This document shows, one piece after another, positions 8,465 through 38,699 of a stretch of 52,860 nucleotides of DNA. The stretch covers positions 190,001 through 242,860 of the forward strand of contig JBFLWQ010000001.1 of NCBI GenBank assembly GCA_040757775.1, written 5' to 3'. Numbering within the stretch: the stretch's first letter is position 1; every line of letters begins with the position of its first letter. Position numbers and translations under genes: made by a program. Origin of the DNA: Thermodesulfobacteriota bacterium (GTDB lineage Bacteria > Desulfobacterota > UBA8473). The notes below the pieces were generated by a model, which ran no database searches, was not told the origin of the DNA, and was given only the letters and a program-made list of their open reading frames with translations.

Positions 8465-9595
8465 TTAAGATTCAAGTATTTTTCGGGCAATTATCATCTT
8501 TTGTATCTCGCTTGTCCCTTCTATAATCTGGGTACATTTGGCATCCCTCATAAACCTCTCTACTGAATGGTCTCTCATATAACCATAGCCACCTAAAATC
8601 TGAACAGCATCGGTTGTCACCTTCATAGCCACCTCTGAAGCGAAGTATTTAGCCATTGAAACGGGCGTAGTCACATCTTCAACCCCTTTATCTATTAACT
8701 GGGCTGCTTCATATACCAGTCCCCTTGCCGCTTCTATTGATGTCACCATATCCGCAAGCTTGAACTGGACACCCTGAAACTGGGATATAGGCTGCCCAAA
8801 TGCAAATCTGGTCTTTGAGTACTCAAGGGCATATTTATATGCCCCCTCAGCTATCCCTAAAGCCTGGGCTGCAATCAGTGGCCTAATCCTATCAAAGGTC
8901 TTCATCAGGACCTTAAACGCTTCACCCTCAGTACCAACCCGGTTCTCGACCGGAACCGACGCATTATCAAAGATGATCTCAGCAGCGGATATCCCCCGCA
9001 TTCCCATCTTCTTTTCATCTTTTCCTACACTTACCCCGGGGAAACCCTTCTCAACTATAAATGCTGATATTCCCTTGGAACCCTGCCCTGGTCCGGTTAC
9101 TGCAAAGGCAAAATGGTAATCAACCACAGCCCCCTGAGTTATAAAACATTTTGTTCCATTAACTATATAGTGTCTCCCATTCAAAACGGCTTTGCTACGA
9201 ATGCCAGCTGAATCCGATCCTGCATGGGGTTCTGTAAGACACAAAGACATTAGCTTATTATCTGCCATCTTAGTGAGATATTTCCCCTTTTGCAATTCAT
9301 CAGCATTAAGCATTAAAAGTGTTGTTGCATAACATACATAAGCTATCTGTGATACCGCAGGGGATACCTTATTTATTTCTTCCACAACAAGGCAGGCGGT
9401 GATTATGTCCCCTCCAAGTCCTCCATACTGCTCAGGAACAAGGAGTTTCAACACCCCCTGTTCTCTTAATATCTCTTCTAAATCTTTTGGATACTCCTCG
9501 TTTTCATCAATCTCTGCTGCTCTTGGCGCTATTTTATCAATAGAAATCTTTCTAACGGTTTCTACCATTGCCTGCTGTTCCTGATTAAAATCCAT
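8465..9595 (-). CDS. Acyl-CoA dehydrogenase (short/medium-chain type, canonical Glu base)
   Basis: A FAD enzyme that introduces an alpha-beta double bond into an acyl-CoA and passes electrons to ETF. The 376-residue protein has the signatures LCLTEPHAGSDSAG (N-terminal FAD/substrate motif) and QILGGYGYMRDHSVERFMRDA. The C-terminal IIEGTSEIQ carries the catalytic Glu at about residue 359, as in SCAD/MCAD. FDRIRPLIAAQALGIAEGA is typical of bacterial butyryl/2-methylacyl-type enzymes, but the substrate cannot be read from sequence. It is the penultimate gene of the minus-strand catabolic run (flavodoxin-like follows) and lies about 110 bp after the epimerase. Unlike three paralogues in this window it keeps the normal Glu. 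Confidence 0.93.
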   Translation of the reverse strand: MDFNQEQQAMVETVRKISIDKIAPRAAEIDENEEYPKDLEEILREQGVLKLLVPEQYGGLGGDIITACLVVEEINKVSPAVSQIAYVCYATTLLMLNADELQKGKYLTKMADNKLMSLCLTEPHAGSDSAGIRSKAVLNGRHYIVNGTKCFITQGAVVDYHFAFAVTGPGQGSKGISAFIVEKGFPGVSVGKDEKKMGMRGISAAEIIFDNASVPVENRVGTEGEAFKVLMKTFDRIRPLIAAQALGIAEGAYKYALEYSKTRFAFGQPISQFQGVQFKLADMVTSIEAARGLVYEAAQLIDKGVEDVTTPVSMAKYFASEVAMKVTTDAVQILGGYGYMRDHSVERFMRDAKCTQIIEGTSEIQKMIIARKILES

Positions 9596-10842: not shown

Positions 10843-12054
10843 TTATATTTTATTTCTGGTCACTATCGTCACCACCGAATTTGATATACCCCTTCCGCCT
10901 ACATTGTGCTGTAACCCATAGCCGTTCTTTATCTTCACCTGCCGCTTCTCATTGATGCTGGGATCGCCGGAACCATTCGAGCCCCTAACATCTTCCCTCA
11001 ACTGCCAGAACAACTCTGCTATCTGAGCAATACCTGTAGCACCCAACGGATGACCTTTGGACATGAGACCACCACTGGGATTGACCGCTACCTCACCATC
11101 AAGGTCAGATTTACCCTGCTCAATGAACTTACCCCCTTTACCCTTTTCACAGAAACCCAAATCCTCATAGTTGATTATCTCTGTAATTGAAAAACAGTCA
11201 TGAACCTCTGCCACATCTATATCCTTCGGCTCTATACCAGCCATAGTATATGCCTGCTTCGCCGCCCTGACAGATGCTACAAACTCTGTAAAGTTCTCCT
11301 TCTCATGGACGTAAAATACATCGGTCCCCATCCCAAAACCAGCAACATATATGGGTTTGTCAGTATACTTTTCAGCCAAATCAGCCCTGCATATTATTGC
11401 CGCAGCCGCACCATCTGTCTGAGGACAACAGTCCAAAAGGTTCAATGGACTGCAAACCATGGGTGATTTGAATACATCCTCTATGGTTATCTCATATCTG
11501 TAGTGAGAGTACGGGTCGTATACGCCATTTTTGTGGTTTTTGACAGCTACCATAGCCATCTGTTCTTTGGTGGTACCAAATTCATGCATATGACGCATCG
11601 CCTGGGGAGCAAACATGGTCATTGCCGTCTCGCCCCGCTGAATCACAGGGTGTCCCTGGGCAGCCAGAGAAAGCATCTCTGCTGTTGATTTGTCCCGCAT
11701 CTTCTCTGCCCCAAGTACTAATGCTACGTCATAGACGCCGGAAGCAACTCCAAGACAGGCATTCCTGAATCCATCACTTCCTGTAGGACAACCGTTCTCT
11801 ATATGGCTGCAGGGAACTCCCGCAAGCCCGATATTCCCCACAAGGGATACCCCGGCAATGGTCTGTGTCCCATGGGCACCAGGCCTGCAATCGGCTATCC
11901 ATGCAGCCTGAATGTCTTTAGGATTAAAACCTTTGTCTACGTTGCTGATGGCATTGAGGTAAGCTTCCTCAACCATAATCTCCCAGCCTTTGTCGAACAG
12001 CTCTCCAAACTTTATTATCCCTACTCCAACTATCGCTATCTTATTCCATCCCAT
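10843..12054 (-). CDS. SCP-x/BbsB-type thiolase (partner of DUF35 protein)
   Basis: A 403-residue thiolase-fold enzyme of the sterol-carrier-protein-x branch. The nucleophilic Cys is in IENGCPTGSDGF (Cys89), EVHDCFSITEI follows in the C-terminal half, and [16 protein letters not shown] carries the conserved His. Homologues such as archaeal acetoacetyl-CoA thiolase and BbsB work with a DUF35 OB-fold subunit. Here the gene directly downstream of an HMGCS-like/DUF35 fusion (23 bp gap) fits that partnership. GGAGGT lies 7 bp before the ATG at 12054. The activity is probably thiolytic cleavage or retro-Claisen chemistry on a pathway 3-oxoacyl-CoA; a retro-aldolase role, as in Ltp2, cannot be excluded. 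Confidence 0.88.
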   Translation of the reverse strand: MGWNKIAIVGVGIIKFGELFDKGWEIMVEEAYLNAISNVDKGFNPKDIQAAWIADCRPGAHGTQTIAGVSLVGNIGLAGVPCSHIENGCPTGSDGFRNACLGVASGVYDVALVLGAEKMRDKSTAEMLSLAAQGHPVIQRGETAMTMFAPQAMRHMHEFGTTKEQMAMVAVKNHKNGVYDPYSHYRYEITIEDVFKSPMVCSPLNLLDCCPQTDGAAAAIICRADLAEKYTDKPIYVAGFGMGTDVFYVHEKENFTEFVASVRAAKQAYTMAGIEPKDIDVAEVHDCFSITEIINYEDLGFCEKGKGGKFIEQGKSDLDGEVAVNPSGGLMSKGHPLGATGIAQIAELFWQLREDVRGSNGSGDPSINEKRQVKIKNGYGLQHNVGGRGISNSVVTIVTRNKI

Positions 12055-12077
12055 ATCTAGTACCTCCAGTATTCCAT

Positions 12078-13517
12078 CTATTTTATTCTTATTGGCCTGA
12101 ATACGTTTCCGTACAGGTTTACATTATCCTCGGAAGTCAATCTCCTCAAAACCAATTCTACCGGCATATCAATCTTTACTTCCTCAGGACTCATCTCTGT
12201 ACCCAATGCCCTGTGTCTAACTCCGTCATCAAGATCAGCAATTATTATAGGTAAAGGAGATTCAAAACCTGCTGGCATGTAATAGTTTACACAGAAGGTA
12301 TGTATCTTCCCTTTCCTGCTGAATACTACTTCTTTAAACTTTGTATTGCCGCACCTTATACAAATTTTTCTTTCAGAAGGCGGAAAGTTCACGTAACCAC
12401 AGTTTAAACACCTGGCACCGATCAGTCTGTAAAGCTCGGCACTTGCCCTCCACATAAGAGGAGACAAGGGAGAAACTCCCAAATCCGCAGGTGATTCGTC
12501 TTTTTTCAGAACCCCTTTACTCCTCAGATACCGTGTATAATCCATATAGACCTTGCTAGCCAGATATGATTGATACGATTTACACCTGCCTTTTGCCTTC
12601 TCTATTGGTTCTCTTACGGTCAGGTAGAGGGCATCACTTGTCCCTGAACCATAGGATACAGCAAGAACCTTGTCTCCCGAAATTGCCCTGTCAAAAACCG
12701 ATGACAGGCCTATAAACAAGCAAGCTGCCCCTGTATCTCCTATGTCATTAAATATGGACCCCAGCTTTGTCTGTTCAGACGTTAGCTTTAGCTTTCTGGC
12801 TATTTCCATGGGAAGTCTAGCATCAGGCTGCTGGAATACTATGTGCTGAAACTGGTCGATGGTTAATCCTGTTTTTGATAAAAGCCCCTTAAGGGAATTG
12901 TGTATGTGCTCTGTATAACCATACTGCCGGGTAAACCTCGGCTCATAGTCTCTTACATAGGTGTCTGCCAAGCTCCTCCAGTTATCTCTAAAGTTACCCG
13001 AATAGGTATAAACTTCTTCAAGATCGGCTATAGTATCCTTATCTCCAACTATAAAAGCCCCCGCTCCACCACCGAAGAACATTTCCATATTGCTCCCCGG
13101 TGAAGCCGGACGATAATCCGAAGCTATTACCAGACCATATCTAACCCTGCCAGACTTTACCGCATCAATACATGCCTTCAACGCCGCAATACCTGCCCTC
13201 GGGGTTGTGGTAAAGTCCATTACTTCAATATCCCGTTTTGCCCCCAATGTCTGAGCGATAACACCTATAGACGAATGCTCTATATTGGGAGGGGAATCAG
13301 TACCTAAATATATGGCATCTACCTCTCTGACATCAGCCAGCCCCGAATGTTCAATCGCATTGACAGAAGCCTCTACCGCCATTGTTATAACATCCTCGTT
13401 GTCATTAAGGGCAGCGTTTTCACCCCTCCCCCCGCCACCCCATACCTTTGCTATATCTTCTCTCTTAATGCGACATTTGGGGATATAAACTCCATAACCC
13501 ACTATTCCTACTGCCAT
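12078..13517 (-). CDS. HMG-CoA-synthase-like domain fused to DUF35 OB-fold/zinc-ribbon
   Basis: The 479-residue protein starts at the ATG at 13517 (MAVGIVGYGVYIPKCRIK), chosen because AAAGGAGGT precedes it; an upstream in-frame ATG has no such site. Residues 1 to about 310 are thiolase-fold, closest to archaeal-type HMG-CoA synthase (GIVGYGVYIPK, FFGGGAGAFIVGD, SYGSGTSDALYL). Residues 365 to the end are a DUF35 unit with a zinc ribbon (Cys370, Cys373, Cys386, Cys389) and OB-fold. Oddity: where HMG-CoA synthases have the nucleophilic Cys, this protein reads TTTPRAGIAAL (102-112), and the FH.P histidine motif reads FQQPD (228-232). I infer a scaffold or CoA-channelling partner for the adjacent thiolase rather than a synthase. 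A paralogue with the same losses is at 37242-38699. Confidence 0.85.
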   Translation of the reverse strand: MAVGIVGYGVYIPKCRIKREDIAKVWGGGGRGENAALNDNEDVITMAVEASVNAIEHSGLADVREVDAIYLGTDSPPNIEHSSIGVIAQTLGAKRDIEVMDFTTTPRAGIAALKACIDAVKSGRVRYGLVIASDYRPASPGSNMEMFFGGGAGAFIVGDKDTIADLEEVYTYSGNFRDNWRSLADTYVRDYEPRFTRQYGYTEHIHNSLKGLLSKTGLTIDQFQHIVFQQPDARLPMEIARKLKLTSEQTKLGSIFNDIGDTGAACLFIGLSSVFDRAISGDKVLAVSYGSGTSDALYLTVREPIEKAKGRCKSYQSYLASKVYMDYTRYLRSKGVLKKDESPADLGVSPLSPLMWRASAELYRLIGARCLNCGYVNFPPSERKICIRCGNTKFKEVVFSRKGKIHTFCVNYYMPAGFESPLPIIIADLDDGVRHRALGTEMSPEEVKIDMPVELVLRRLTSEDNVNLYGNVFRPIRIK

Positions 13518-13734
13518 ACTTACCTCCTTTACATTATTCAATAGCTAAACTGCTCTATCGATTAGATCTCAGAATTCCCCCAAAATGCTCAGGTATACTA
13601 TGAGACCATTAAAAACTGTGTTTGTTTTGAAAAATGTCCCTTAGAGCCATTCATAAAACGGATGTTAAAGCAAAAAGGATTTTAATTTTTATCACAACAA
13701 AAAGGATTATTACAAGTATTTTTTACTAGTTTTT

Positions 13735-19412: not shown

Positions 19413-20774
19413 CTATTTTTTATCTTCCGGCCAATCTTCAGTAGGAGCTGGTAAAACAACCGGCACCGGCTTTCCATTTTTCCAAAACTTCTCTACTATT
19501 GGATGCTTTTTAGCAGTAAGGAATTGTATTATATCCTTTGGGGAGATGGCATCATCTTCTGTAGCTATCTTTTCATAAACTTCTTCCGGGATTGCATCTG
19601 CGATCTGCTTCTTTAAGTCCTGATGAATCCACACAATTCTATCCCATCCTCCATCACCCATCTGAAACTTTTTAGATCTTACTGTTCCAATAGAGGCACC
19701 CATATATCCATGTCCCTGAACACCTCCGCACGCTTCCGCAGCCAATTTTGAAAAAGTCAGCCCTTCGCCCAGCGGGGTTATTCCCTTATAAGTCCTGTCA
19801 ACCAAGCCTATCCCATCAACCTGAGGGATATAAAACAGCAACAATTCAAATCACCCTCACGAGGTCTGTGGGTATTTTATAGTGCTATATAAGTTTACCC
19901 TCTTTATCGTTTTATTGCTCTTGGCAAAGATATACTCATTAACCCCTTCATATTGACCATATGCTTCATTGATTTTTTTCCCTTTTGGAATTCTCACCAG
20001 GTAACCAAAAGGATCGATCTCCAACCCCACCTCTGCACCTTTATAGTTGATGATACCACAGAACGGCATCCGCTCCGGGGCTATCATACAGACATGATTT
20101 GGGGCAAAACCCTGGCAAAGGGTACAGCCAAAGAACTCATCAACATCATCATCCTCAATTCCAACCATCCTGCTCTCCTGGGCTTCCCATTTATGCCTGA
20201 TGTCATTATCCACTATTTCTTTAATAAATTCTGCACCACCAACCTCCGGACTCCCTATTATTACTCTAGCTTCGATGGCCTCAATTATGGGAAATGCAGA
20301 CTTTGCAAGGCCAAAGAGCAGACTCAAAAGTTCTGGCCAGGTAATTCGATCTGCGACATTTTTCCCGACACGAAACCATTGATTCGATCTGGCATTTACA
20401 GCCATAATCCCTTCCATTTGTTCCAGAAAATCACCTATTTGACGGAGAAAGAATTCATCATAATCTACCCTCATCTCCTTACCGTACATCTTTATAATCC
20501 ATCCAAAGGGAAGGGAAGTTCCTGGTTCAACTTCATTGATGTCGGGGCCAACAATCTCAACTCTTCCATCCTGTACTTCATCAGGATCCGTCATTACTTC
20601 GATTGACTCAAAAATGCTTCCTGACCATTTGGGCCCACCATACTCAACATGATAATCATCCTTTCTGATTCTCTCACCTTGAAACCGAGGACCATACCCG
20701 ATCCTGATATTTGCGAGAGCTTCTTCAATATCTTCACTAATCTGACAAACTCGTCCTTCAGGCCATTTAATCAT
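19413..20774 (-). CDS. cdhC: Acetyl-CoA synthase beta subunit homologue (CdhC/AcsB-like) with two in-frame TGA codons, predicted Sec-Gly-Sec
   Basis: Acetyl-CoA synthase joins a methyl group, CO and CoA at the Ni-Ni-[4Fe-4S] A-cluster. The predicted 453-residue protein has the short archaeal CdhC length, lacking the extra N-terminal domain of Moorella AcsB. A-cluster cysteines are Cys217, Cys220, Cys229 and Cys239 (FFGCTLCQGFAPNHVCMIAP...CG). The gate Phe is at 223. The frame then meets TGA at 19857-19859 and again at 19851-19853, flanked by PQTS and FELLLFYIPQVDGIG. In AcsB this place reads TSCGCFE, whose two Cys bind the distal Ni. Intervals 3-9-10-67-2 equal those of Moorella Cys506/509/518/528/595/597. 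Sequence after the TGAs stays homologous to the CdhC C-terminus (KFQMGDGGWDRIVW) to TAG at 19413. Start: ATG 20774, with AAGGAGG 7 bp upstream. Selenocysteine insertion is the best reading; truncation into two genes is unlikely. Confidence 0.9.
19822..19859 (-). promoter_or_regulatory. Candidate SECIS-like mRNA hairpin at the TGA pair
   Basis: In the mRNA the first UGA and following GGG (UGAGGG) pair perfectly with CCCUCA 32 nt downstream. Inside this 6-bp foot there is an imperfect inner stem with unpaired U residues and an about 7-nt apical loop (UGUUGCU) that starts UG. The 38-nt size, the UGA in the foot and about 13 nt from UGA to the loop resemble bacterial SECIS elements. I folded it by eye; no energy was calculated. 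The inner stem is weak, so this remains a candidate. Confidence 0.45.
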
Positions 20775-20930
20775 CCTCAAACCTCCTTTTAACCGCTTAA
20801 CCTCATCAATAAGGCTTTAGTCTAGAATATAACTAATACTTTTAAAACACAAACCACTCTAAGAATCTTCAGGCTTATAGCAATCTTAATAAATTTTTGA
20901 ATTGAAAATCTCCCTTGTCTCTCTGCACAA

Positions 20931-21166: not shown

Positions 21167-21910
21167 ATGGCGAAAAGAGAAGAAATTCTGGAAGCAGCAA
21201 CCATGCTTTTTTATGAAAAGGGATACCAATCTACATCCATGAATGACCTGGCAAACGAGATGGGTCTGAGCAAATCCGCTATCTACCACTATTTCAGGAG
21301 TAAAGAAGAAATTTTAGTGGAAATTTATGAAAAAACCATTACAGATGCTACCAATGAACTTTCCAAACTGGCCACTTCTGATAAGTCTACCATTGACAAA
21401 TTACGGGAGGCTATTATAAACCAAATAGAACATATTATGATTGAAAGACAATCCATGTTAAAAATATTTTTTCAGGAAGAAGAACAGCTTCCTGACAAGT
21501 TTCATAAATCTATAAAAAAGAGAAAAAGAGAATACAATAGACTGATAGAAGGCATTTTTACCGAAGGTATAAGTGAGGGCATATTTAAAAAAGGTGATCC
21601 TCAACTTTTCGTAAATGCCTTTCTTGGTATGTGTTTGTGGGTGTACAGGTGGTATAAGCCGAATAGCAAATACAAACCTGAGGATATTTCAAAATACTTT
21701 GTGAAACTAATAGAAGAAGGTTGTCTTACTCCTGATTTTAAAAGACTAACCAAAGAAACAGTCACTACGCCTTCAAATGGTGAGGATATTTCTGGAGGTG
21801 ATTTTTCAGTTGAAAGTGTAATAAAAAGAATGCGTTATCATACTTCGATGATTGAAATATTAAACAGCCAATTAAACACTCTCTTAGAGGAGAAAATAAT
21901 ACAACACTAA
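21167..21910 (+). CDS. TetR/AcrR family transcriptional regulator
   Basis: A 247-residue regulator. The N-terminal DNA-binding domain is clear (KREEILEAATMLFYEKGYQS, helix-turn-helix MNDLANEMGLSKSAIYHYF, SKEEIL, residues 3-50). The ligand domain resembles the TetR_C subgroup common next to fatty-acid and CoA-degradation genes, with a C-terminal extension of about 35 residues predicted helical. It is divergent from the ACS-like gene and 85 bp upstream of the CODH-like gene, so it probably controls both. An acyl-CoA effector is likely by analogy, not shown. Confidence 0.92.
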   Translation: MAKREEILEAATMLFYEKGYQSTSMNDLANEMGLSKSAIYHYFRSKEEILVEIYEKTITDATNELSKLATSDKSTIDKLREAIINQIEHIMIERQSMLKIFFQEEEQLPDKFHKSIKKRKREYNRLIEGIFTEGISEGIFKKGDPQLFVNAFLGMCLWVYRWYKPNSKYKPEDISKYFVKLIEEGCLTPDFKRLTKETVTTPSNGEDISGGDFSVESVIKRMRYHTSMIEILNSQLNTLLEEKIIQH

Positions 21911-21995: not shown

Positions 21996-24488
21996 ATGTC
22001 AAAAAACAAGAAGTACCAGGTAGCTAAAGTTGGACATAAGGAGATCGACATAACAAAAACAGTAAGAGACATAAGAGGAGTGGAGGAAATAGTAAAAGAA
22101 TCGATTGAAACTACCTGGTCAGAAAATCTGGTAAACCAGATGAAAGTATGGCTGACTCCATTTCCAAACCCAACAGACATGGCTGAGTGGGATAGAATAT
22201 TATTGGAGAGGTATCCACCACTATATACAGTTATTGAAAAGAAATGTAACAACTGCTATATGGGAACGTGTGAGCTGGATAAGGGAAAAGGGGCATGTGG
22301 TTTGGACTTGGAAACTTATCAGGCAAAGTTATCACTGCAAACATCATGCAGAGGGCTTTCTATACAGCTCTCCTCAACGAGATACCTATTAAACCATTGT
22401 ATAAAAGAGTTCGGCGAAAGAAAAAAGATAAAGTGGGGCAAAAATGTCGCTTACGGGATGATGAACGTAAATGCAATATGCGGTTTTACACCCAGAACTT
22501 TGAAAGAAGCAAACAGGGTAGTAACTTATTTAGAGGGTCAACTCTCAAGCCTACTATCCTCTGCCAGTGTTGGATATGAGGGAAATACAACAGACCTGGA
22601 ATCCAAGGCTCTCCACGCTGGGTCACTTTTGTTGGTGGCATTGGATGTTAATGAGTTTTTGAAACATGCGTTTTTCAACTTCTGCTGGGGGCCAGACCGA
22701 GAACTGACGGAACTCCCAACGTTCCCTGACCCCACCACGCATACAGGCATAGGAACGGTAGACACAAGCAAATCAGTTATATTATTTTTGGGTTTTGACT
22801 TCTTACCGGCATGGAATGCTGTGAACTATATTAAAGCCAACGGTATGGAAGAGACTATAGAGGTTACTGGCATCGGGTCTGTTGGGCATGATCTCATACG
22901 GTTTTACGATAAGGCAAAAATCCTTACCTCCCCTGTCAAGACCAGTAAGGTATTAAGGATGGGGATACCTGATGTGATAGTAGTTGGTGACGCGTGTTGT
23001 AAGACAAATGTGCTGGAAGATGCAAAGAGGACGGATACAAAGGTTATCGCCACCAGTTTCAATCAGAATATGGGCTTAGTGAACAGGGTTGAAGAAAATG
23101 TGGATGATATTGTAAATGAGCTTTTGAGTGGCTCTCAGGCTGTATTGGTGACGGATCCAAAAAAGGCCGGTGAAGTAGCCGTCAAACTGGCTGGGAAAGT
23201 TAAATCCCTGAGGAAAAAAAGCTACCTCTTATCTAGCAAAGAAATAAAAAAATGGGCATCCAAATGTGATGGGTGTGATGCCTGCTTTAGAGTATGTCCA
23301 AATAGCCTTCATATAAGCGCTGCGTTAAAGGCAGCCTCGAGTGACAATACTGGAAGGCTATGTGAACTACATGATAAAAGCATTTACTGTGGCAAATGTG
23401 AAGAAGTTTGTCCCCAAAATATACCGATAATAGACATGATTATTGCTGCGGCACAGAAGGAAATAAGAGAGGATAAAGCTGTGATGAAGGCAGGAAGGGG
23501 GACTTTCGGCAATCTAGAAATAAGAGACTGGGCTATCACGATGTTTTCTTGTCCGGGTTCAGTAGTCATAATGGGATGCAATAACTATAAAGGGTCAGAT
23601 ATGGACATAGCTTATATTGCATCTGAATTAATATCAAATACCTACTCAGTTACAGTCGCCGGTTGCGTGGCATCTGACATTGCCAGGTATAAAGATAAAA
23701 AGACAGGGAAGTTTTTATATGAACTCTACCCGACGCTTTTCAACCCTAAGTGTCTGGTAAATACAGGTGGCTGTTCAGGTCAGTCCCATTTCACAACCGC
23801 TTTTTATAAGGTCGGCTATATGGGATTCAGGTCCCCCTACAGGGCTACCTACGCAATGCAATCAGATTTTACTACCAGATTTCCAAACGTACTCGTTATC
23901 TGGGGACCGGCATCAGACCTGATGTATACCCTGGCATCGGGTTATGCAAGAGCCGGTATCCCGGTAATCCTCGGACCCGGTGGTTTCAACTTTAAGCGAT
24001 ACCTGATGGGAAATAAGTATGATAGGAGCAAGTGGTGGGCACTCCATGGAAATACAGGGAAAAAGGGAGAAGTTGACCCATTGCCTGAACACATGATAGT
24101 ACCTGTAGAAACGAAGGAAGAAGTCCTTGCACTTATTCCAAAGCTATGCTTCCTATTTCAGGATATGGAAACAGCCAGACAAACAAAATTCGATTTTTAC
24201 CTTGATTATTATAACAATGCTTTTGGAGTTTTGCCAGATGACTGGCACCTATATGTAAGAAGGGAAGTTGAGATTCCATTGATAAAAAAGGTAAAAATCT
24301 TGCGCTTGCTCGAAGAAGAACACGGCTGGGAAATAGACAGAAAGAAAGGCAGGGTCATAAGGGCAAGGCACAGAGATGGCAGGTTGATCCCCATGGAAAA
24401 GTTCCTTGAAGAATACGGATTTCCTTCTGGTCAATACATAACCTTCATACCTCGACTGGTATATAAAGAAAGGGCAGATAGGGAATAA
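21996..24488 (+). CDS. cdhA: Carbon monoxide dehydrogenase alpha subunit homologue (archaeal CdhA type) with altered C-cluster site
   Basis: CdhA oxidises CO or reduces CO2 at a Ni-Fe-S C-cluster and supplies CO to acetyl-CoA synthase. The 830-residue protein has the B/D-cluster cysteines (CNNCYMGTC at 84-92, Cys101) and two ferredoxin-type motifs ([12 protein letters not shown] at 424-435, CGKCEEVCP at 465-473) as in archaeal CdhA. Retained C-cluster candidates are Cys334, Cys528 (IMGCNNY), Cys557 (VAGCVASD), Cys593 (TGGC) and His598. The usual GHN histidine reads LGFDF (Phe267), the GLCC cysteine reads GIGS (292-295), and the AAHxxH relay after the B-cluster reads [11 protein letters not shown]. 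The comparison is from memory of the family. GGGAGG precedes the ATG. It may be a CODH paralogue with a different substrate or a structural partner of the ACS-like protein. Confidence 0.85.
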
Positions 24489-36038: not shown

Positions 36039-37229
36039 CTATCTCGGCTCCTTACCAAAAATGTTTACAAGCACGGTAGTCCCCAGACCGCCAAGATTAT
36101 GGGTACAGCCTATTTGAGCATCTTTTACCTGTCTTTCTCCTGCCTCTCCTCTTAAATGCCACCAGAGTTCACAGATCTGGGCAACACCTGTAGCACCTAT
36201 AGGATGCCCCTTTGCCTTAAGTCCTCCACTCGCGTTACATGGCTTGCTGCCACTAAGCATAGGGTGACCCTCTTCTATCCATTTGCCGCCTTCGCCTTTT
36301 TTACAGAAGCCCATATCCTCATAGGTAATTAGCTCTGTAATGGTAAAACAGTCATGGAGTTCAGCCAAATCAACATCATCAGGCCCAATGCCTGCCATCT
36401 TATAGGCTTCTTTGGCAGCGGCCTGTGTTGCCGGAAATTCTATGAAGTTCTTTTTCCACGGTTGGTACATAGGATCAGTTGCCAGCCCTGTCCCCATGAA
36501 ATACAGTGGCTGATCCGTATACTCTCTTGCTCTATCCTGCCTTGTTAGGAGAATTGCTGCTGCTCCGTCGGTTGTAGGACAGGCATCAAACAGCCCCAAA
36601 GGCCATGAGAGAAGGGGAGCATTCAATGCCTGCTCCACAGTTATCTCAAAATTGAAATGGGTATAAGGGTCTAAAGTACCGTTGTGATGGTTCTTTACAG
36701 CTATCATGGCAAGGTGGTCTCTCTTCGTACCAAATTTATCCATATGGGCTGTGGCAAGGGAGCCAAACCTTTGAGGGGCTGATGCCCCCCTGGGGTGCCA
36801 CCATGCATGATACATGACACCGGTTTGGGCGATAAGGGAATCTCTCGATGGTATGTCCCTCATCTTTTCCGCACCGACTACCAAAACCAGATCGTACACC
36901 CCGGATGCTACAGCAAAGGCAGCATTTCTTACAGCATCACTGCCCGTACAGCACGCATTCTCCATTCTACTTACAGGCCTTGGAAAGAACCTTATGGGTT
37001 CTGCCAGTCCTGCTCCCGTAAGTATCTCTCTCCGAAATCCGGTTCCGGGGATACATGTTCCCAACCACCCCGCTTCTATATCTTTCTCATCTATTCCTTT
37101 ATCAACGCTTTTTAAACATGCCCTGTAGGCACCTACTATCATATCCTCATAGCTCTGATCAAACAGTTCCCCGAATTTAATCATTCCAGCGCCAACAACG
37201 GCTACTGGCAATCCTTTTTGCTTCGCCAT
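36039..37229 (-). CDS. SCP-x/BbsB-type thiolase (second copy)
   Basis: A 396-residue thiolase of the same branch as the one at 10843-12054. The nucleophile lies in MENACCTGSDAVRNA (Cys93, followed by another Cys). ELHDCFTITELITYEDMGFC and [25 protein letters not shown] are present. AGGAGG precedes the ATG. It is the last gene of the right-hand minus cluster, 12 bp after an HMGCS-like/DUF35 fusion gene, repeating the pair seen at 10843-13517. The two copies have clearly diverged, so different 3-oxoacyl-CoA substrates are likely. Confidence 0.88.
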   Translation of the reverse strand: MAKQKGLPVAVVGAGMIKFGELFDQSYEDMIVGAYRACLKSVDKGIDEKDIEAGWLGTCIPGTGFRREILTGAGLAEPIRFFPRPVSRMENACCTGSDAVRNAAFAVASGVYDLVLVVGAEKMRDIPSRDSLIAQTGVMYHAWWHPRGASAPQRFGSLATAHMDKFGTKRDHLAMIAVKNHHNGTLDPYTHFNFEITVEQALNAPLLSWPLGLFDACPTTDGAAAILLTRQDRAREYTDQPLYFMGTGLATDPMYQPWKKNFIEFPATQAAAKEAYKMAGIGPDDVDLAELHDCFTITELITYEDMGFCKKGEGGKWIEEGHPMLSGSKPCNASGGLKAKGHPIGATGVAQICELWWHLRGEAGERQVKDAQIGCTHNLGGLGTTVLVNIFGKEPR

Positions 37230-37241
37230 AAAAAAGTCCTC

Positions 37242-38699
37242 CTATTCTTTTACCGGTCTGAACTTATACCCATACCTTACCAGCCCCAATTCCTGACCAC
37301 ATCTCCTGAAGACAAGCTCCACTTTACCACCTACTTTAACATCCTCTGGTTTGCAGTCCGTCATCATTGAGGAAACATTGCCGCCATATTGCCCCTTTGC
37401 CCCTTCCATCTTTGCCGTACAAATTGGTATGGGAGCCTGTTCAGGACTTACCGCTACCACATACTGGAAATTGAAGGTTAATATTTTACCTCTTCTGGGA
37501 AGGGGAACTTCTTCAAATTCCTCTCCCCTGCAGTCAATACAATAATGCCTCCTGGGGAAATTCAACGAACCACATCCTTTACATTCCAATGCCTTCAGCT
37601 TTAATTCATACTCCTTTTCTCTCTCTCCGGAAGGCTGGGTTACAATGGCTGACATAGGTTCAGGAAGTCCCTTTACCTTGAGTATGCCGATGGTCTTTTG
37701 ATAAGTGTAATAATCTATATATTCCTTATTTTCCAGGTAACGCTTAACAGGGGTTACCCTATCCCTTTTTGTATTTATATCTTCTGAGACGAGGAGAGAA
37801 AAGGCATCACTCCCTGCCCCTGAACCATAAGATACCAGAAGTATCCTCTCACCGGGTTCAGCCTGATCAAGAGCTGCCGCAAGTTCAAGGAAAGCAGAGC
37901 TGGAACCCGTGTCCCCGCAAAGAGGAGAAACAATGGACGAAGGCATCTTAACGGACTTTATCCCCAGTTTCTTGGCAGCCGAGGCAGGAGACTGGCCATC
38001 GGGCTGGGTAAAGGCTGCGTACTGAAAGTCACTTCCTGCCTTTTCTGCCTTCTTGAAAAATCCTTTGCCGGCATCAACGATAATCTTTGAATAACCAGCA
38101 AAACGCTCGTACCTTGGGTCATCATAACGGTTTACAAATTGATCACCATCACTCCTCCATGTGCCGGTAAAACTGGTAGAAAGGGAATACGAATATTCAA
38201 ATTCCGCTATCTTACCATCGCTGCCCAATATACACGCCGCAGCTCCAGCTCCCAGGGAGTGCTCCAGAGAATCGCCAGGCACTCCCAATTGCCAGTCTGT
38301 CCCTATCACCAGCCCATATTTCCCTCTTCCCGCCTCTAAAAAGTCCATACACGACCTGAGGGCGATTGTACTCGACTTTGTGGATCCACCAAAGTCGGCA
38401 ATAGAAGCACTTTGAGACATACCTAAAGTCTCTGCTATGATTACAGCTATAGACTTACTGATGTATGGACTGGATACAGAACCTACATACAAAGCATCTA
38501 TCTCCGACAGGGTCACTCCCGCATGGGCAATAGCATCCTGGGCAGCCGCTACTGCCATGGTGGTAGCATCCTCGTCGAAGCCTGCCACGGATTTTTCATT
38601 AATCCCGGGGGCCCTGCCCCCCCAAACCTTGGATATGTCTTCCCTCTTCAACCTGTATTTTGGGATATACACCCCATAACCTACTATACCAACGGACAT
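37242..38699 (-). CDS. HMG-CoA-synthase-like domain fused to DUF35 (second copy)
   Basis: The 485-residue fusion starts MSVGIVGYGVYIPKYRLKRE. The thiolase-like domain occupies about residues 1-310. A DUF35 zinc ribbon (CKGCGSLNFPRRHYCIDC) and OB-fold follow. The nucleophile region reads ADFGGSTKSSTIAL (101-114), with Thr in place of Cys, and the His motif reads AAFTQPDGQ, with Thr in place of His. Both canonical HMG-CoA synthase residues are thus absent, as in the paralogue at 12078. It probably forms a channelled complex with the thiolase encoded 12 bp downstream. The B12 small-subunit gene ends 17 bp upstream. Confidence 0.85.
   Translation of the reverse strand: MSVGIVGYGVYIPKYRLKREDISKVWGGRAPGINEKSVAGFDEDATTMAVAAAQDAIAHAGVTLSEIDALYVGSVSSPYISKSIAVIIAETLGMSQSASIADFGGSTKSSTIALRSCMDFLEAGRGKYGLVIGTDWQLGVPGDSLEHSLGAGAAACILGSDGKIAEFEYSYSLSTSFTGTWRSDGDQFVNRYDDPRYERFAGYSKIIVDAGKGFFKKAEKAGSDFQYAAFTQPDGQSPASAAKKLGIKSVKMPSSIVSPLCGDTGSSSAFLELAAALDQAEPGERILLVSYGSGAGSDAFSLLVSEDINTKRDRVTPVKRYLENKEYIDYYTYQKTIGILKVKGLPEPMSAIVTQPSGEREKEYELKLKALECKGCGSLNFPRRHYCIDCRGEEFEEVPLPRRGKILTFNFQYVVAVSPEQAPIPICTAKMEGAKGQYGGNVSSMMTDCKPEDVKVGGKVELVFRRCGQELGLVRYGYKFRPVKE

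Follow-up and report, generated by a model that had tools for sequence, protein, structure and literature searches.

Within the window, by which we mean the whole 52,860-nucleotide stretch of DNA that was analysed, a minus-strand reading frame at 19413..20774 encodes a homologue of the acetyl-CoA synthase (ACS) subunit CdhC/AcsB. Translation of this frame yields 453 residues from an ATG at 20774, ahead of which lies a Shine-Dalgarno-like AGGAGG (20782..20787, minus strand), and its only in-frame stops are two TGA codons. The first of these (19857..19859) falls at residue 306 and the second (19851..19853) at residue 308, with a single GGG codon separating them, and both align with cysteines of homologues, namely those equivalent to Cys595 and Cys597 of Moorella AcsB; we predict the product to be a selenoprotein containing Sec306-Gly307-Sec308. 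The codons of the four remaining A-cluster cysteines (residues 217, 220, 229 and 239), which are [4Fe-4S] ligands by homology, lie at 20058..20126 on the same strand. All six A-cluster ligand positions are present with the exact spacing of ACS (intervals of 3, 9, 10, 67 and 2), the last two being TGA. The original prediction, made from sequence alone, had claimed that the frame is broken only by TGA-GGG-TGA at the A-cluster Cys-Gly-Cys, that the ligand intervals are those of Moorella AcsB and that homology resumes beyond the TGAs without indels; all three claims held, and the alignment of the window protein to solved ACS chains runs without a gap through the TSCGCFE motif.

When TGA is read as Sec or Cys, the window protein matches both Pfam domains of the ACS beta subunit and exceeds the cut-offs of the NCBIfam cdhC equivalog TIGR00316 (391.6 bits, cut-off 355.95) and of PRK04456.1/NF003379 (423.4, cut-off 372). 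An AlphaFold2 model of the protein has a pLDDT of 91.2, and a Foldseek search with this model returned ACS chains as the only significant structural matches (probability 1.00). The fold is that of the CdhC/AcsB enzymes, which carry a [4Fe-4S]-Ni-Ni A-cluster (9c0s/9c0t, 3git, 1oao and 6ytt), with a TM score of up to 0.85 on 3git. Unlike these enzymes, the window protein has two of its six A-cluster ligands encoded by TGA, and it belongs to a separate clade.

A CdhA-like (CODH alpha) partner of 830 residues, identified by profile match, alignment and co-location, is encoded on the plus strand at 21996..24488. Between these two divergent complex genes lies a TetR-like regulator (21167..21910, plus strand), which was recognized by eye from its helix-turn-helix N-terminus and had no NCBIfam match at E 1e-20. 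A search of the window for genes of CdhB-, CooC- and ChlI/ChlD-like proteins found none. Other neighbours in the window encode acyl-CoA dehydrogenases, acyl-CoA ligases, a CaiB-type CoA transferase and methylmalonyl-CoA-mutase-like enzymes, a set that fits acid breakdown via CoA thioesters but leaves the substrate undefined. The window also contains two thiolase/HMG-CoA-synthase-like gene pairs (10843-13541 and 36039-38699), and a further pair lies near the CdhA-like gene of another TGA-pair genome (G004, L113 4005-6633); these pairs may be a clue to the pathway in which the complex works. With ordinary gene calling, the ACS-like gene would be broken in two at its TGA codons and the complex hidden.

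Conservation of the TGA pair across genomes

Two in-frame stops could denote a pseudogene or a sequencing error, and a frame that continues through UGA could denote genome-wide reassignment of this codon in a Trp or Gly code. The original prediction had argued that two random nonsense mutations landing on exactly these Cys codons would be implausible, and had suggested looking in related genomes for the same TGA-Gly-TGA. For a single gene, we roughly estimate the chance of two independent nonsense mutations on just these two codons at 5e-5, and the comparative evidence is much stronger than this figure. A search of 198 relatives uncovered four more same-family genomes (60-64% identity) and one genome of another family (46% identity) in which the gene contains exactly two TGA codons, and in all five the codons are TGA-GGN-TGA at the same place. 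Using a DNA pattern scan for TGA-GGN-TGA across one genome for each of 84,980 species, we recovered the four same-family genomes again and added Syntrophaceae CG2_30_49_12 (L063), a Nitrospinae bacterium (L068), a Nitrospinota bacterium (L070), a Chloroflexi bacterium (L069), Dehalococcoidia UBA2777 (L072) and Deltaproteobacteria DeMMO5_3 (L071). Counting the pattern-scan genomes, the window and G184, with names as given in public MAG records, the TGA pair is found at the identical site in 12 species, 11 of them additional to the window, which span Desulfobacterota, organisms labelled Nitrospinae/Nitrospinota, and Chloroflexi; none of these genes contains any other stop, and the implausibility argument is borne out.

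The remaining six of the 16 DNA pattern matches (L060, L064, L066, L067, L073 and L074) were chance occurrences in unrelated frames. Scanning genome contigs with single-sequence peptide patterns gave no match, and scanning viral contigs for the pattern gave none. Two further candidates were rejected: a two-TGA fragment in G171 results from a frameshift that put the translation out of frame, and a normal TSCGCFE is present there; an apparent TAG in G738 lies outside the motif, and that genome's two copies are of the Cys form and lack the conserved hairpin described below. The subfamily is rare, being present in 8 of 395 genomes of the phylum and in 2 of 400 genomes of the phylum around UBA2777.

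Sister copies carrying TGY-GGN-TGY are present in G047, G082, G005, G003, G198 and G738, and proteins with Cys-Gly-Cys at this position are a classic sign of Sec/Cys exchange. The Chloroflexi genome G200 holds a second copy (L104 5408-6754) that reads TGA-GGG-TGC, or Sec-Gly-Cys, in which the downstream hairpin sequence is changed. Around the TGA site the frame is free of indels in all 12 species, and it is continuous through TGY in the Cys relatives. In codon comparisons limited to those with unsaturated synonymous sites, dN/dS downstream of the TGAs was 0.03-0.10, similar to the value upstream. Neither decay nor error can explain such values, which indicates that the frame beyond the TGAs is in use, and sequencing error is further excluded because the same codons recur in independently assembled genomes from several phyla. 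General decay among homologues, which would have counted against the original prediction, was not seen. A pseudogene or sequencing error is thus all but ruled out. The same holds for UGA reassignment: TGA is the ordinary stop of 8 of 35 window genes and therefore the genetic code as a whole is unchanged, and, among what was examined, a conserved in-frame TGA occurs only at the ACS-like site and in SelD. The TGA pair, its conservation and the selection acting on its frame are shown by these comparisons; that the gene is translated is inferred.

Selenocysteine machinery and a predicted SECIS hairpin

A genome lacking selenocysteine machinery would have refuted the original prediction. The window genome encodes the complete selA, selB, selC and selD set, comprising SelA (641 bits), SelB (357 bits), SelD (393 bits, with an in-frame TGA of its own) and a tRNA-Sec with a UCA anticodon, an 8-bp acceptor stem and G73 (77.4 bits). 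SelB was not found in the TGA-pair MAGs G004 and G006 or in G200, and in the TGA-pair MAG G003 only its last 24 residues are present, at a contig edge; these absences are probably explained most simply by contigs missing from fragmented MAGs. G005 has two SelB genes (C47:8786-10681 and C245:2576-4468), which are 75% and 37% identical to that of the window genome.

An alternative means of reading these codons is the selC* system known from some Desulfobacterales/delta-proteobacteria, in which a UCA-anticodon tRNA-Cys that mimics tRNA-Sec, together with SelB* and CysRS*, would decode the UGAs as Cys (PMC7609411). In favour of this alternative are its precedent in delta-proteobacteria and the presence of selC*-like tRNA-Cys(GCA) genes beside Cys-form relatives of the ACS-like family in G184 and G198. 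Against it, the system was not found in the window genome, where only one tRNA-Sec-like gene scores over the cut-off and is a true tRNA-Sec; selC*-like genes elsewhere, at about 60-64 bits, would not have escaped this search. A single SelB was found in this genome (G000) and no second, and its SelD, with a TGA of its own, points to true Sec decoding. We consider decoding as Cys very unlikely.

The selC*-like tRNA genes lie at L091 7387-7485, L091 13653-13750 and L090 8197-8294 (genomes G198 and G184). They resemble tRNA-Sec in Rfam searches (about 60-64 bits) but carry a GCA (Cys) anticodon and, in the drawn folds, U73, and each is situated just upstream of a Cys-form or decayed ACS-like copy.

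Downstream of the TGA pair we found a predicted bacterial SECIS hairpin, UAUCCCUCA-GGU-UGAUGGGAUA (19809..19830, minus strand), an addition to the original prediction that is supported by synonymous-codon conservation and a common minimum-energy fold. Its GGU apical loop (19821-19819) is separated from the second TGA by 29 nt and from the first by 35 nt, and both distances are inside the 16-37 nt range reported for bacterial SECIS elements (Zhang and Gladyshev 2005). Among gene pairs sharing the amino acid, codon identity over the hairpin is 0.91 compared to a background of 0.43 for the gene; this peak corresponds to eight codons starting ten codons past the first TGA (ATC CCT CAG GTT GAY GGG ATH GG), and the top 11 of 319 codon-identity windows all overlap it. 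At the same place in Cys-form genes, codon identity is 0.46. All eight genes that were folded share the same minimum-energy hairpin, with 8-9 pairs, a one-base bulge and the GGU loop, and the selD genes of the same genomes have hairpins after their own TGA, several with a GG-containing loop. The folding energy of the hairpin region is not unusual relative to shuffled sequences (z -0.03 to -1.8), an Rfam search that included a loose threshold found no SECIS family there, and in the Nitrospinota member (L070/L109) the sequence downstream differs from the conserved hairpin. Because of the latter, a single SECIS sequence is not common to all members and, since the energy is also not significant, the case for a SECIS element rests on codon conservation and placement. 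The conserved hairpin itself is shown by sequence; its guidance of selenium incorporation is inferred, and the service of two Sec residues one residue apart by one hairpin would be unusual. The Cys-form copy in L091 (TGT-GGG-TGT at 8556) keeps the hairpin letter for letter, which could mean either that TGA changed to TGT recently or that Cys codons are decoded there in a SelB-type manner.

It might also be argued that the locus gives rise to two separate polypeptides, the C-terminal half being a protein of its own, or that the ribosome reads through only rarely and by accident. A 143-residue open reading frame could begin at a TTG at 19844, and low-level, non-Sec UGA read-through is known for acsA of Clostridium autoethanogenum (PMC4895105). 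However, an A-cluster requires residues from both halves of the protein, and neither scenario accounts for the indel-free frame in 12 species, its continuity through TGY in Cys relatives or the conserved hairpin. The acsA precedent resembles our gene in being an in-frame TGA in a CODH/ACS gene but differs in that it concerns a CODH subunit and one TGA at a Ser position in one species, which its authors judged unlikely to be Sec (PMC4895105). These possibilities are therefore very improbable, and Sec-Gly-Sec is by far the best reading of TGA-GGG-TGA.

An ACS-like clade with an altered CdhA-like partner

In a maximum-likelihood tree of 38 proteins, the TGA-containing proteins and their Cys-form sisters form one clade (support 100/99), from which standalone CdhC (96/97) and AcsB (100/100) are separate. 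Sec and Cys forms are intermixed within the clade, strongly supported branches force at least three changes between them, and both motif positions change together except in the second G200 copy (G200b). Sec appears to be old in the clade, with several switches to Cys, although the direction of change depends on the root.

In other genomes, too, a CdhA-like gene is located together with the TGA gene. The window CdhA-like protein keeps four of six C-cluster ligand positions and has Phe and Gly at those of His261 and Cys295 (CODH-II numbering). Both residues are missing from the CdhA-like partners of all relatives examined, most of which keep the remaining four C-cluster cysteines, and this altered partner is shown by sequence. 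The CdhA-like protein of the Nitrospinota bacterium (L109 9779-12346) has lost all C-cluster cysteines, yet its gene adjoins a TGA gene; a scaffold or other role for this protein is possible.

Conserved neighbours in relatives encode CdhA-like, CdhB-like (a weak match) and CooC-like ATPase proteins, a ChlI-like AAA ATPase and a ChlD-like AAA/VWA protein. In the group comprising G184, DeMMO and Nitrospinae, an FwdB-like protein is encoded nearby, joined in some genomes by a molybdopterin-binding FwdD-like protein and a small FeS protein, the Nitrospinota version of which resembles CdhE over its first 50 residues. An FwdA-like protein is encoded near the Cys form of G082. Among the neighbours scanned in relatives, we found no corrinoid CdhD/CdhE and only this CdhE-like N-terminal FeS domain. 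At L108 2382-7899, L049 7642-11669 and L106 7373-12846, the CooC-like and ACS-like genes are flanked by those for the ChlI-like ATPase and the ChlD-like protein, the latter of which contains a Cys-rich insert; the two flanking proteins conceivably constitute a nickel insertion machine.

It remains possible that the complex is an ordinary Wood-Ljungdahl acetyl-CoA synthase/decarbonylase in which selenium stands in for sulphur, as its ACS fold, A-cluster spacing and CdhA/CdhB partners would suggest. Against this stand its placement in a separate clade, the altered CdhA partners, the lack of corrinoid CdhD/CdhE in the neighbourhoods examined and the presence in the window genome of an ordinary AcsB that already carries Cys-Gly-Cys. 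Because its CdhA-like partners lack C-cluster ligands, the complex is likely not a normal CO-forming CODH/ACS, and since two of these ligands are lost and none of the neighbours scanned encodes a corrinoid-binding subunit, a role as an ordinary Wood-Ljungdahl ACS is improbable. The original prediction is refined accordingly: the gene belongs to an ACS-like family of its own, whose CODH-like partner is altered, and "acetyl-CoA synthase" is a name given by homology only.

A putative nickel-selenium A-cluster

In our preferred reading, SelB and Sec-tRNA(Sec), guided by one hairpin roughly 30 nt downstream, would insert Sec at both UGAs, such that Thr-Ser-Sec-Gly-Sec-Phe replaces Thr-Ser-Cys-Gly-Cys-Phe. 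That both positions carry Sec, as part of an A-cluster-like nickel site, is very likely but inferred, since there are no measurements of the protein, of selenium or of metals. In ACS, Cys-Gly-Cys supplies the distal nickel with two thiolates and two backbone amides, the proximal nickel is bound by three thiolates, and Cys509 connects the two nickels to the cubane (PMC8910529). The chalcogen atoms of Cys-Gly-Cys also bridge the distal and proximal nickel in ACS. By homology, two Sec side chains and backbone amides would hold the distal nickel as Ni-N2Se2 instead of Ni-N2S2 and, because these atoms bridge in ACS, the same selenolates would probably also ligate the catalytic proximal nickel. The original claim of a selenium-ligated nickel site in the A-cluster is thus supported, with selenium incorporation and cluster assembly still inferred, and is refined in that selenium would probably touch both nickels rather than the distal one alone. 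By analogy with [NiFeSe] hydrogenase, the exchange might strengthen the donor set and perhaps help the site to retain nickel and resist oxidation.

The protein would act as the ACS-like subunit of an archaeal-type CdhABC-like complex, with maturation genes of its own (CooC-like and ChlI/ChlD-like) in related genomes. Its reaction can only be inferred. Our guess, which we offer tentatively and with rather more doubt than conviction, is that the nickel site makes or breaks an acyl-CoA, with the carbon supplied or taken up by something other than a corrinoid protein and a normal CODH. A bolder reading, for and against which we find the case evenly poised, is that of a new nickel-selenium organometallic enzyme, in which a Sec-Gly-Sec di-nickel A-cluster, a partner without a normal C-cluster and the absence of a corrinoid protein serve a C-C/acyl-CoA reaction other than Wood-Ljungdahl acetyl-CoA synthesis.

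Known systems offer partial parallels. In [NiFeSe] hydrogenase, Sec replaces Cys as a nickel ligand (PMC13188914; PMC12316806), but this unrelated protein has one Sec per nickel at a Ni-Fe site, whereas the ACS-like protein has two predicted Sec one residue apart at a di-nickel site. The HgcA-type selenoprotein, listed as a CO dehydrogenase/acetyl-CoA synthase gamma subunit, is a predicted selenoprotein relative of a CODH/ACS subunit (PMC13188914) but belongs to the gamma (corrinoid) subunit family, has one Sec and is not the A-cluster subunit. Prokaryotic selenoprotein tables from 2022 and 2026 contain HgcA/CdhE-type proteins and no CdhC or AcsB. In the open-licence literature searched, titles and abstracts do not describe Sec in ACS, the A-cluster, CdhC, AcsB or CODH, and we found no Sec-Gly-Sec holding nickel or selenium ligand of an A-cluster there; an earlier report elsewhere is possible. 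As inferred from sequence, the gene would define a new selenoprotein family, and its A-cluster would be of a new form.

Collectively, the finding marks an uncharacterised CODH/ACS-like complex in uncultured anaerobes. If the proposed site is correct, it would constitute a new type of nickel-selenium centre in biology and would offer, in a family that ranks among the oldest carbon-fixing enzymes, a natural sulphur-to-selenium swap at both distal-nickel ligands, for which the naturally occurring Cys-form sisters provide a comparison. The role of the distal nickel and its ligands in ACS has been described as unclear (PMC8910529), and under this reading it would become directly testable.
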